This document shows positions 14,355-59,190 of a stretch of 64,000 nucleotides of DNA, one piece after another. The DNA comes from an uncultured Chryseobacterium sp. GTDB taxonomy: Bacteria > Bacteroidota > Bacteroidia > Flavobacteriales > Weeksellaceae. The stretch covers positions 1 through 64,000 of the forward strand of contig NZ_CAJYMO010000272.1 in the NCBI RefSeq assembly GCF_913776365.1, written 5' to 3'. Below the pieces are notes generated by a model that was not told where the DNA came from, made no database searches, and was given only the letters and a program-made list of their open reading frames with translations. Within the stretch, counting starts at the first letter, position 1. Each line of letters opens with the position of its first letter. A program made the position numbers and the translations under genes.

Positions 14355-15380
14355 TTATTTAATCAGGAAGTTGAATTTATCCATGTTTTTAAGCGCGATC
14401 CCTGTTCCGCGTACCACGGCCCTTAAAGGATCTTCAGCAACAAAAACAGGAAGCCCGGTCTTTTTATGAAGCCTGTCGGCAAGCCCTCTCAGAAGCGCAC
14501 CGCCGCCGGCAAGGTAAATCCCGGTCTTGTAAATATCAGCTGCCAGCTCAGGAGGCGTAAGGGAAAGGGTTTCCATTACCGCATCCTCAATCCTGATGAT
14601 GGATTTGTCAAGAGCCCTGGCAATCTCTTTGTATCCCACCATGATTTCTTTCGGTTTTCCTGTAATCAGGTCCCTTCCCTGTACCGGAATATCCTCGATA
14701 TCCACATCCAGGTCTTCCACGGCAGAACCTACTTCAATTTTGATTCTTTCTGCCGTTCTTTCCCCGATATACAGGTTATGGTGGGTTCTCAGGTAATAAG
14801 CGATATCATTGGTAAATACGTCACCGGCAATCTTCACGGATTTATCACAAACAATACCTCCCAAAGCAACAACGGCAATTTCCGTGGTTCCTCCGCCGAT
14901 ATCGATGATCATGTTCCCTTCAGGCTTCTGGACGTCAATCCCGACTCCTATTGCCGCTGCCATCGGCTCATAAATCAGCCTTACTTCTTTGGCATTTACT
15001 TTCTGGGCAGAATCGCGTACCGCTCTCTTTTCCACTTCAGTGATCCCGGAAGGAATACAGATCACAATCCTCAGTGCCGGCTGGATAAATTTACCTTTAA
15101 TGCCCGGAATTTTCTTGATGAATTCTTTAATCATGTGCTCAGAAGCGTGGAAATCGGCAATCACCCCGTCTTTCAGCGGACGGATGGTCTTGATATCCTC
15201 ATGAGTTTTTCCCTGCATATGTTTTGCCTGCTCTCCCACGGCAATCGGTCTACCCGTAGAACGTTCGATGGCAACAATAGACGGCTGATCTATAACAATT
15301 TTATTATTATGGATGATTAGGGTATTGGCAGTACCAAGGTCTATCGCAATTTCCTGCGTAAACATATCGAATAAACTCAT
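14355..15380 (-). CDS. mreB: Rod shape-determining protein MreB
   Basis: Actin-like motifs IDLGTANT, IDIGGGTTE, LAGGGALL. Confidence 0.98.
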   Translation of the reverse strand: MSLFDMFTQEIAIDLGTANTLIIHNNKIVIDQPSIVAIERSTGRPIAVGEQAKHMQGKTHEDIKTIRPLKDGVIADFHASEHMIKEFIKKIPGIKGKFIQPALRIVICIPSGITEVEKRAVRDSAQKVNAKEVRLIYEPMAAAIGVGIDVQKPEGNMIIDIGGGTTEIAVVALGGIVCDKSVKIAGDVFTNDIAYYLRTHHNLYIGERTAERIKIEVGSAVEDLDVDIEDIPVQGRDLITGKPKEIMVGYKEIARALDKSIIRIEDAVMETLSLTPPELAADIYKTGIYLAGGGALLRGLADRLHKKTGLPVFVAEDPLRAVVRGTGIALKNMDKFNFLIK

Positions 15381-15407
15381 ATTTCCTTCTGATTTTTTAA
15401 AGAGTTA

Positions 15408-52872: not shown

Positions 52873-52946
52873 TCCTCCTTAGCTCAGTTGGTTAGAGCAT
52901 CTGACTGTTAATCAGAGGGTCGCTGGTTCGAGCCCAGCAGGAGGAG
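52873..52946 (+). tRNA. tRNA-Asn (GTT), copy 1
   Basis: Acceptor TCCTCCT/AGGAGGA, anticodon loop CTGTTAA, T-loop TTCGAGC. Confidence 0.97.
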
Positions 52947-52950
52947 CAAG

Positions 52951-53142: not shown

Positions 53143-53216
53143 TCCTCCTTAGCTCAGTTGGTTAGAGCATCTGACTGTTAATCAGAGGGTCGCTGGTTCG
53201 AGCCCAGCAGGAGGAG
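53143..53216 (+). tRNA. tRNA-Asn (GTT), copy 2
   Basis: Identical to copy 1, offset 270 bp. Confidence 0.97.
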
Positions 53217-53220
53217 CAAA

Positions 53221-54234: not shown

Positions 54235-54499
54235 AATGTATCGGGTTTATTATTTAACGTCATTGAATCGGCAGTCCCTGCTGCTTCCGGAATCACTGAT
54301 GCAAAATACACGCCTTCTTTTGCAGAAAAATCCCGACACCTTTATTTTACGGAAAGGGGCCGTAAAAGATAACGGATGATCATCTTATTTCATTACCTTT
54401 GCCGTTTATAGGAAAGCCGTCTTTCAGGCTGAATATTTTAACTCGTAACAATAAAACTGCATACTTTTTGTTTATGCTAATAGCTTGAAGGAACAACAA

Positions 54500-57025
54500 A
54501 TGTCAATTAACCATCCGAAATACTACGCTCTTTTTTTTCTGCTCTTTTTTTTCGACTGTATCTATTGCCAGAATACAGCTTCCGGAAGGATTGTTGATGC
54601 AAAAACCAATAAGGATGTCACGGGAGTCGATCTGTTCATCAATGACGACGAAAAGCCGGCACTTACCACCACCTCAGGGAATTTCCTTGTTCAGTCGGAT
54701 ACCATCATCTATAAATTAAAATTTCTCAGGAAAAACTATGCCTTGCAGAGCATAGAAATCAGCCCTGAAAATGCTTCCAATATTTTCGTTAAGCTTGCAC
54801 AGGAAAAAGTAAGCTCCATTGAAGAAGTGGTGATCCATAACGAAAAGCCTAAATATAAGAACAAAAAGGAAAACCCTGCGTATGCCATTATGCAGAAAGT
54901 GTGGGAACGCAAAAGAAACAACGGTCTTGATAAATTTGACACGTATACGTTCAAGGAGTATGAAAAGATCCAGTTTGATGCCAACAACCTGGACAGTGCT
55001 TTCATGAAGAGGAAAATCTTCAACAAGCTGGATTTTATTTTCGATTATGCCGATTCTACTGCCAGCGGTAAAATCGGGCTTCCGCTTTTCCTGAATGAAG
55101 CCGTCTATGAAAACTATGGGGAAAACAGGCCATCCAAAAGGAACAAGAGATTGCTGGTAGCCCAGAAAACCTCAGGCTTCCAGGACAACCAGATCATTAC
55201 CCTGACCGCTAAGAACCTTTACCGTGATATCAATATTTATGACAATACCCTGAATTATTTCGACATCGGATTTCCGAGCCCGGTGGGAGAAACCGGATTC
55301 AGCACTTACGATTACAATCTGATCGACACGATTTCGATCCGCGGTGAAAACGCTTTTAAAATACGGTACCTGCCGAAAAGAACGGAAGTCCTTGCCTTCC
55401 AGGGATACCTGTATATTGATACCGACAGCTATGCCGTACTGGGAGCAACGTTAAAATCAACCCAGAAAATCAATGTGAACTTCATCAACGGCATTTCCAC
55501 GGAACTGGAATATGACAATCCGGATGAAAACACATTCCTGCCGAGAAAGGTGATTACGGAAATCGAAATGACCCCTTTTTCAAAGAAGAAAAGCGCCAAA
55601 AGCATCGTGGCAAAGCGGTCTGTGGACTATTCCGACTACGGTTTCAACAAACCTCTTGAAGATAAACTCTTTAAAAGGACCGAAGAAGAATACAGCGATC
55701 AGTTTGTTGAAAAAGATGACGCCTATTGGGTACAGGCCCGGCCCGACTCACTGTCAAAAAGCGAACAGGGAATCTATGATATGCTGGATAAGCTCCAGCA
55801 GACCCCGAAGTTTAACCGGCTGGTAAAACTATATGAAACACTGGGTTCCGGCTATTACAATGTAGCCAAAAGCATTGACCTCGGCTCTATTTTTTCTGTT
55901 TACGGTAAAAATGAAGTGGAAGGAGACCGGATAAGGATCGGTGCGAGAACATATTTTACACGGAATGATCCCTGGAGGCTGCAGTTTTATACGGCTTACG
56001 GCTTCAAAGACCACCAGGTGAAATACGGGGCGGAAGGACGGTTTATGTTTAACCGGGTAAACCGCTTTACCGTCGGGGCAGGGACCAGAAGGGACATCTT
56101 GCAGCTCGGCGTACAGCTTACCAACGACGATGGGATCATGGCCCGGACATTTGCCTCCTCCACTCTTTTTGCAAGGGGCGAAAACGCTTCTTTAAGCTCC
56201 GTAAACCAGACCAATGTCTTTACCTCTATAGAACCCTGGAAAAATATCCAGTTGAGGCTGGACGGTACGATGCAGAGCATCAAATCAGCCAATCCGGATG
56301 GATTCAACCTGATGTATTACAAAGACGGCAATGTAAGGAAGACAACCAATGATTCCCACCTTGCCCTGAGCCTTATTGCAAGACCGGGCGCCAAATTTTC
56401 ACAGACCGGCCTTGACCGGACCGAGCATGGAACACTGGCACCAACCATTATCCTGAAATATACCCGTGGGATCGAAGGCCTTTTCGGATCGGACTTTACG
56501 TATAACAAGCTTCAGTTTATGTTTTACAAGCCGATCCTGATCGGGAGCTGGGGCAAGCTGATGCTGAATTTTGAAGCGGGAAAAAACTTCGATACCGTGC
56601 CCCTGGCATTGCAGAATGTAATTCCGGGTAACCAGTCGTACAGCCTGGCGGCCAACACATTTGCACAGCTTAACTATTATGAATTTGTAGCGGACACGTA
56701 TACCACCCTTCATCTGGAACATCACTTTAACGGAAAGATCCTTTCTTTCATTCCGCTGATCAAAAAACTGAAACTACGGGAGGTTGCTTTTATCAGAAGC
56801 GCTTACGGAACATTGAGTGATGATTCAAAAGCCATCAATGTGACCGGATTCAAGTATTCTGCCCCGAGTGAACATATCTATTATGAATACGGAGTAGGCC
56901 TCGAAAACATCGGTTTCGGGAACCTGAGGATTTTCAGGGTAGACTTTAACTGGAGAGGGAATTACCTGGACCGGCCGGATATTTCAAAATTCGGAATCAA
57001 AGCCGGATTTCAGGTAAACTTTTAG
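54500..57025 (+). CDS. DUF5686 / carboxypeptidase-like regulatory domain outer-membrane protein
   Basis: Signal peptide, CarboxypepD_reg-like N-terminus, C-terminal beta-barrel ending in aromatic (VNF). Confidence 0.88.
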   Translation: MSINHPKYYALFFLLFFFDCIYCQNTASGRIVDAKTNKDVTGVDLFINDDEKPALTTTSGNFLVQSDTIIYKLKFLRKNYALQSIEISPENASNIFVKLAQEKVSSIEEVVIHNEKPKYKNKKENPAYAIMQKVWERKRNNGLDKFDTYTFKEYEKIQFDANNLDSAFMKRKIFNKLDFIFDYADSTASGKIGLPLFLNEAVYENYGENRPSKRNKRLLVAQKTSGFQDNQIITLTAKNLYRDINIYDNTLNYFDIGFPSPVGETGFSTYDYNLIDTISIRGENAFKIRYLPKRTEVLAFQGYLYIDTDSYAVLGATLKSTQKINVNFINGISTELEYDNPDENTFLPRKVITEIEMTPFSKKKSAKSIVAKRSVDYSDYGFNKPLEDKLFKRTEEEYSDQFVEKDDAYWVQARPDSLSKSEQGIYDMLDKLQQTPKFNRLVKLYETLGSGYYNVAKSIDLGSIFSVYGKNEVEGDRIRIGARTYFTRNDPWRLQFYTAYGFKDHQVKYGAEGRFMFNRVNRFTVGAGTRRDILQLGVQLTNDDGIMARTFASSTLFARGENASLSSVNQTNVFTSIEPWKNIQLRLDGTMQSIKSANPDGFNLMYYKDGNVRKTTNDSHLALSLIARPGAKFSQTGLDRTEHGTLAPTIILKYTRGIEGLFGSDFTYNKLQFMFYKPILIGSWGKLMLNFEAGKNFDTVPLALQNVIPGNQSYSLAANTFAQLNYYEFVADTYTTLHLEHHFNGKILSFIPLIKKLKLREVAFIRSAYGTLSDDSKAINVTGFKYSAPSEHIYYEYGVGLENIGFGNLRIFRVDFNWRGNYLDRPDISKFGIKAGFQVNF

Positions 57026-57031
57026 AATAAC

Positions 57032-57060
57032 AAAACTCCTTCATAAAGAAGGAGTTTTTT
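57032..57060 (+). terminator. Terminator of the DUF5686 gene
   Basis: aaaactccttc ataaa gaaggagtttttt. Confidence 0.85.
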
Positions 57061-57065
57061 ACTGG

Positions 57066-57251
57066 TCAGGATTCCGAAGGATAGTCTTTGCAGCCGTTGC
57101 AGTGGGCAACAATGTACACGATATTGCACGTTGGCCTCTGCCCTTCAGGGATTGCACAATACACATCACACGGAAGACAGCCTGCCGAAGGATTGATTCC
57201 TCCCGCCACTTCTTTCAGCTGCTGCCTGCTGATTTTTTTCAGGTTTTTCAT
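57066..57251 (-). CDS. Double-glycine-leader, cysteine-rich bacteriocin/RiPP-like precursor peptide
   Basis: MKNLKKISRQQLKEVAGG leader and 43-aa core with six Cys (CxxC...CxxC). Confidence 0.75.
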   Translation of the reverse strand: MKNLKKISRQQLKEVAGGINPSAGCLPCDVYCAIPEGQRPTCNIVYIVAHCNGCKDYPSES

Positions 57252-57398
57252 AATGACTTTGTTTTAATTTGATGATGGGCCCAATCCGGCTCAGATGGTA
57301 TAATCTGTTACGTATTTGACACTTACCAAATATATAAATATTTCTCTTTGAATTGAAAAATATAACAAGAAATAAATTCATTTGAATAACCGCATAAA

Positions 57399-57424
57399 AA
57401 AACCTCAGCAATTGCTGAGGTTTT
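57399..57424 (-). terminator. Terminator of rpmA, perfect palindrome
   Basis: aaaacctcagcaattgctgaggtttt. Confidence 0.85.
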
Positions 57425-57448
57425 GATTTTTATAAAACGCGTAATTGA

Positions 57449-58299: not shown

Positions 58300-59190
58300 A
58301 TGAAAAAAACCTTAAAATTTCCCTTCCTTGCGGGAGCCATTGCTGCTCTCTCACTGACCGCCTGTAACGATGACACCATGGAAACACCTTCCCTGCAGCA
58401 GGAACAGCAGGCCGAAAGCCTGAGACCGGAACAGCCGGGTGATCTGGAGAAGGTATGCTATTATGTAGACCAGAACTGGAGCTCCAGCGCCGTGCTTACC
58501 ACCTCACTACAGAATTCCGCTGACACCAGCTTTATGAATTCCCAGATGACCAAAATTGCAAGCCTGTGGGGAAGAAGCAATCCTACCCTGAGATTCGTAA
58601 ACGATCCGTCCAATTACAACTCCACCTACAATGCCATTTCCTACTCCACCGGAAAGATCTACTATGGCTATGCGATTTATTATGATGCTAAAAACAAAGG
58701 TGGGGATATCGTAAATGCCATGATTCTGGCTCACGAGTATGGCCACCAGCTACAGTACATCTTTGGTCTCCCGACAGTGAACGAATCGACTGCAAGGCCG
58801 AATGAACTGGAAGCAGACGGTTTTGCAGGCTATTATCTGAGAAGGCCGAACGGCTATAACCAGACTTCCTTCACCCAGATTGCGGCAGCTTACGAGTTTG
58901 CGCAGAGCATCGGGGATTATCAGACCAACAGTCCGGGGCACCACGGAACGCCTCCCCAGCGGAGATCGGCCGTGCGTCTGGGATTCCTGTTAGGCCAGTA
59001 TGACCTTACGGCTTCTGCCTTTGATTATAATTTCTTCTATTATTACCAGGGCGTCCTTAACGGCACCTATAAAATGGGAAAGAATACCCAGTATCCTGAA
59101 ATCGATGCCTTTATGCAGCAGCATATGGAAGAGCTGAGAAAAATCCAGAGCGGGGAAATTTCTGCTGAAGAATTTAAAAACCTTAAGTAA
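58300..59190 (+). CDS. Neutral zinc metallopeptidase lipoprotein
   Basis: Lipobox SLTAC; HEYGHQLQ...ELEADGFAGYYLRR. Confidence 0.88.
   Translation: MKKTLKFPFLAGAIAALSLTACNDDTMETPSLQQEQQAESLRPEQPGDLEKVCYYVDQNWSSSAVLTTSLQNSADTSFMNSQMTKIASLWGRSNPTLRFVNDPSNYNSTYNAISYSTGKIYYGYAIYYDAKNKGGDIVNAMILAHEYGHQLQYIFGLPTVNESTARPNELEADGFAGYYLRRPNGYNQTSFTQIAAAYEFAQSIGDYQTNSPGHHGTPPQRRSAVRLGFLLGQYDLTASAFDYNFFYYYQGVLNGTYKMGKNTQYPEIDAFMQQHMEELRKIQSGEISAEEFKNLK

Follow-up and report, generated by a model that had tools for sequence, protein, structure and literature searches.

A new six-cysteine core on a curated Chryseobacterium double-glycine leader, probably processed in trans by a C39 exporter and a VKOR-thioredoxin protein

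RESULTS

A conserved gene for a six-cysteine peptide with a double-glycine leader

The open reading frame described here is a real, conserved gene of Chryseobacterium, in which a new core is carried on a leader that is already curated. It stands alone in the window, as we call the whole 64,000-nucleotide stretch analyzed, and comparison with related genomes suggests that it quite probably encodes a secreted, disulfide-stabilized peptide of 43 residues, processed in trans by a C39 ABC exporter with an HlyD-type adaptor and by a membrane protein that joins C39-like, VKOR and thioredoxin domains.

The gene occupies positions 57066..57251 on the minus strand (61 codons plus a TGA stop inside these coordinates), and its translation is identical to the one from which it was first singled out. 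The 61-residue precursor consists of an 18-residue leader (MKNLKKISRQQLKEVAGG; 57198..57251, minus strand), with the two glycines at positions 17 and 18, and a 43-residue core (INPSAGCLPCDVYCAIPEGQRPTCNIVYIVAHCNGCKDYPSES; 57069..57197, minus strand). The cysteines reported at core positions 7, 10, 14, 24, 33 and 36 were verified in the translation. The earlier note had described a symmetric six-cysteine core; the number stands, but the spacing, C-x2-C-x3-C-x9-C-x8-C-x2-C, is only roughly symmetric.

The gene lies downstream of rpmA and rplU and is convergent with a DUF5686 gene (54485-57025). On its 3' side are an A-run, a hairpin of the CTCCTT...AAGGAG type (57032..57060, without strand assignment) and a T-run, an arrangement found alike in the 27 listed orthologues. 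Judging by its sequence, this hairpin is common to both convergent genes and is probably a bidirectional terminator that ends the peptide and DUF5686 transcripts. Upstream, 83 bases from the ATG, the element TATATTTG (57327..57334, minus strand) is tentatively read as a Bacteroidetes -7 promoter box (TAnnTTTG); an exact TAnnTTTG precedes the gene in only 6 of the 27 orthologues, this locus counted, at distances that are not all equal and with no -33 box shown. On the plus strand, at 58300-59190, lies a gene for a putative lipoprotein whose zinc metallopeptidase-like domain scores under the family cut-offs; this gene stays beside rplU in related genomes. Elsewhere in the window there are two tRNA-Asn (GTT) genes (52873-52947 and 53143-53217), and the opposite-strand open reading frames at these places are artefacts.

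Full-length orthologues (E < 1e-25) were found in 28 of 175 genomes of the genus, including the source genome; one of the cultured species that carry it is C. gregarium DSM 19109 (L100). Conservation counts and dN/dS values refer to the 27 that were extracted; the 28th (L041) has AG instead of GG. All 27 are 61 residues long, with invariant cysteines and invariant CLPC, PEG, RP and IVAHCN motifs, and the stretch IVYIVAHCN[GS]CK is near-identical across these species-level genomes. The core had a median pairwise dN/dS of 0.11, compared with 0.21 in the leader. The DUF5686 gene adjoins the peptide in 29/29 related loci, and rpmA lies on the opposite side in 28 of them; in the remaining one (L026), the contig end is reached before rpmA. 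Frameshifted or unconserved homologues had been named as grounds for doubting the gene. What we found were conserved homologues and a single decayed copy, a shortened relative with a mutated cysteine in G155 (L252).

The slot between rpmA and DUF5686 (window 57026-57448) is a recurrent site of six-cysteine leader peptides. A distant form, FKCEGISCDWYCSLPAGSRPVCLSPQTLVPICGGC, occupies it in other species. In a survey of 30 genomes (L250-L279), all but a few picked for the absence of a close orthologue, leader peptides were present beside rpmA in 17, either as the distant form or as a second six-cysteine type, CP...xWCxEWCxW..WQK.HC, in one to four tandem copies; in the other 13, the examined stretch beside rpmA held no leader peptide. 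Since the slot in other species contains other six-cysteine peptides, is empty or carries a decayed copy, we consider it a recurrent but dispensable peptide site. Homology of the window core to the second slot family (CP..xxWCxEWCxW) was considered, given a similar cysteine register and the same slot, but an hhalign P of 0.21 gave no demonstration of it.

The leader belongs to a genus-wide family

The first 18 residues had been proposed to form a double-glycine leader, and they match the NCBIfam model NF047798 (leader_Chryseo, "bacteriocin-like protein"), which spans the leader alone, scoring 37.7 bits where the curated cut-off is 23.5. A leader model built with the window peptide left out gave 36.1 bits for this peptide. 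The best score elsewhere in the window was 6.0 bits and the maximum among 30 Markov-1 simulated windows was 8.8 bits, so the leader is more than a chance likeness.

The proposed search for paralogues with the same leader returned nine NF047798 matches above the cut-off in the source genome, which is approximately 91% complete. The peptide had been called an orphan; as a lone peptide it is not one, given at least nine leader-sharing peptides in its own genome and a genus-wide set with a leader already curated in NCBIfam. The leader is present in 162/175 Chryseobacterium genomes, with up to 48 matches per genome. A further leader match in the source genome (G000:C174:3298-3351; L007) contains an in-frame TGA and is possibly a decayed copy. 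A literature search found no paper on the NF047798 family, which is not proof of absence.

The core itself had no meaningful match in NCBIfam and is without a curated family. The closest models are alike in the leader only: NF047792 (CCPGW putative bacteriocin) shares a common leader region (23 bits, residues 1-21 only, against a cut-off of 80), which makes the peptide a nonmember, and PF10439 (class II bacteriocin with a double-glycine leader) is alike in leader type but scores 12.1 bits, below its gathering cut-off of 27.1. In a PDB sequence search the best match had an E value of 0.2, and the likeness to the class IIa/IIc bacteriocin carnobacteriocin B2 (PDB 1ry3) is weak (E 0.2); PADLOC gave no match. 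AlphaFold2 models of the precursor and the core (25- and 23-row alignments) reached pLDDT values of only 55 and 64; this quality did not suffice for a fold search, and for this reason we predict no disulfide pattern.

A C39 exporter and a VKOR-thioredoxin protein are encoded together on another contig

The window contains no C39 domain, in agreement with the earlier note, which saw no exporter nearby and expected machinery from elsewhere; a C39 ABC transporter, an HlyD-type protein and a C39-like/VKOR/thioredoxin protein were found on another contig. The genome-wide search for C39 transporters yielded exactly one match above the cut-off (G000:C168:14295-14660), so the source genome is not devoid of a C39 protease. 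The protein (L062/L065; 118 bits) also has ABC_membrane and ABC_tran domains. C39 domains occur in 171/175 genomes of the genus, with a single match each in seven orthologue-bearing genomes (the source genome G000, G005, G044, G045, G069, G099 and G110).

The genes of this row (L065) lie on one strand. At its upstream end is a peptide with the same leader (15217-15402), followed by a GLPGLI protein, a 502-residue membrane protein fusing C39-like, VKOR and thioredoxin domains (G000:C168, L065:11806-13314, minus strand), the 730-residue C39 ABC transporter and the HlyD-type adaptor. The N-terminal part of the VKOR protein (~110 residues) matches C39 in a profile comparison (96.2%, E 2e-9), a likeness that needs a diverse alignment and is unseen with close homologues alone. 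Because the alignment begins after the C39 catalytic-cysteine region, this domain is probably inactive; such a degenerate domain may serve to dock leaders. Cysteines 174, 186, 253, 256, 365 and 368, which correspond to the two VKOR loop cysteines and to the CxxC motifs of the VKOR and thioredoxin domains, are invariant in 53/53 VKOR proteins.

Leader and VKOR-thioredoxin genes occur together across the genus. Among 175 genomes, 161 had both, 1 only the leader, 3 only the VKOR gene and 10 neither (Fisher 5e-13, a value that overstates independence because the genomes share ancestry). The leader-only genome, G070 (99% complete), has leader peptides at L206, L210, L214 and L217 and neither a C39 nor a VKOR match. 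The VKOR-only genomes are G031, which has a weak match, and G090 and G140, in which leader-like peptides are present but below the threshold. Among 248 genomes sampled from the order, only three outside the genus carried the leader, each with a VKOR relative; thirteen others had a VKOR relative but lacked the leader. Relatives of the fusion protein are thus encoded by other genera of the order as well, and their clients there may be other short GG-like peptides. Peptides with the same leader were found at most 1.5 kb from the VKOR gene in 19/24 loci, with 1 to 5 per locus. It is mainly the presence of one leader on both the machine-adjacent peptides and the dispersed window peptide that leads us to assign the latter to this machinery; its predicted processing in trans is well supported.

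Most peptides with the same leader have even numbers of cysteines

Cysteine parity was assessed in two sets not selected by core sequence, which include some related sequences and many families. Among leader-selected peptides in or beside matches in six genomes, 34/37 had an even, nonzero number of cysteines, 25 of them six; all 47 VKOR-flanking peptides had four or six. Pooled, 81 of the 84 peptides had even, nonzero counts, mostly six or four, and in the source genome the fraction was 11/14. Some cores with this leader (L006 and similar ones) display a C..C..CC..C..C pattern, like that of inhibitor cystine knots.

Disulfide bonds, thioethers and metal binding had all been offered as chemistries for the core. 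The co-occurring VKOR-thioredoxin oxidase and the even cysteine counts favor the first, and three disulfides would be the most economical reading of the window core. The other two have no sign of a maturase in the neighboring genes: no MNIO, lanthipeptide or graspetide enzyme was recognized there in a reading of the open reading frames, which were scanned in part.

DISCUSSION

As described above, the precursor is probably a client of machinery encoded on another contig. In the scheme that we consider likely, the 18-residue leader would direct the precursor to this machinery, the C39 peptidase domain of the single ABC exporter would cleave after Gly18, and the core would leave the cell through the ABC-HlyD channel. 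The degenerate C39-like domain of the membrane protein would be the probable leader-docking part, and its VKOR-thioredoxin part would oxidize the six cysteines to three disulfides.

The nearest characterized analogues, compared by description, are the bacteroidetocins (proposed class IIf), secreted Bacteroidetes peptides of ~42 residues with double-glycine leaders and cysteines (PMC6671954). They are encoded in a four-gene region together with a C39-type ABC exporter, a transmembrane protein and a dedicated thiol oxidoreductase; according to the authors, this last enzyme is expected to form the disulfides (PMC6671954). This combination of double-glycine leader, C39-type exporter and thiol oxidoreductase follows the same logic and gives experimental precedent for the scheme (PMC6671954). 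However, bacteroidetocin leaders have 15-16 residues and the characterized members four cysteines (PMC6671954), whereas the window peptide has an 18-residue leader, six cysteines and machinery on a separate contig, and it falls outside class IIf. Peptide natural products from the same genus include MNIO RiPPs (chryseobasin) and graspetides (chryseoviridin); among the neighboring genes read and partly scanned at the window locus, no MNIO or ATP-grasp gene was identified.

What the secreted product would do is a more speculative matter. The idea that it is directed against competing bacteria, one weapon in a set shared across the genus, is tentative, with a chance that we put at a little under even. 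A low dN/dS is atypical of an arms-race toxin and counts against this role, and the strong conservation keeps a signal-like role in play. With the same export and oxidation, the product could instead serve as a signal or have a role in the envelope or the colony, present as a single copy in a fixed slot under strong purifying selection, a reading to which we give roughly one chance in three. The core dN/dS of 0.11, the near-identity of the IVYIVAHCN[GS]CK stretch in 27 species-level genomes, the conserved gene neighborhood and the fact that no immunity gene was recognized beside the peptide are consistent with it. Nevertheless, up to 48 divergent cores on one leader look more like a varied arsenal, and the slot that is elsewhere empty, decayed or filled with other six-cysteine peptides points to a dispensable function; we slightly favor antagonism.

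It seems improbable that the core is modified or metal-binding (by thioethers, or by copper, zinc or an iron-sulfur center) and not a disulfide mini-protein. Its CxxC pairs could hold a metal, and the cysteine region weakly resembles radical-SAM activase segments (E 0.008), but this match, tried as an assignment for the core and rejected, scores 15.5 bits where 425 are required, the gene has no conserved maturase next to it, and the leader co-occurs with a disulfide oxidase and with cores of even cysteine number. That the gene is a silent relic, its leader left over from duplication, is very improbable, since the decayed relative in G155 and the patchy paralogues are outweighed by purifying selection, a conserved terminator and the uniform length of the 27 full-length orthologues that were extracted.

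Returning to a secreted, disulfide-stabilized product, a broader proposal, which we judge to be an even call, is that the genus operates a trans-acting factory, in which one leader-docking oxidase and one C39 exporter would fold and secrete up to ~50 dispersed, unrelated four- or six-cysteine peptides per genome. Some clients would be knottin-like (C..C..CC..C..C), and the window gene would be one conserved client. An apparent orphan precursor thereby becomes the putative client of an identifiable machine, and one deletion, of the C39 ABC or the VKOR-thioredoxin gene, would probe processing of the whole peptide set. If this proposal is true, Chryseobacterium would offer a natural supply of numerous disulfide-rich, genetically encoded peptides, and the C39-like/VKOR/thioredoxin fusion would catalyze oxidative folding under the guidance of the leader.
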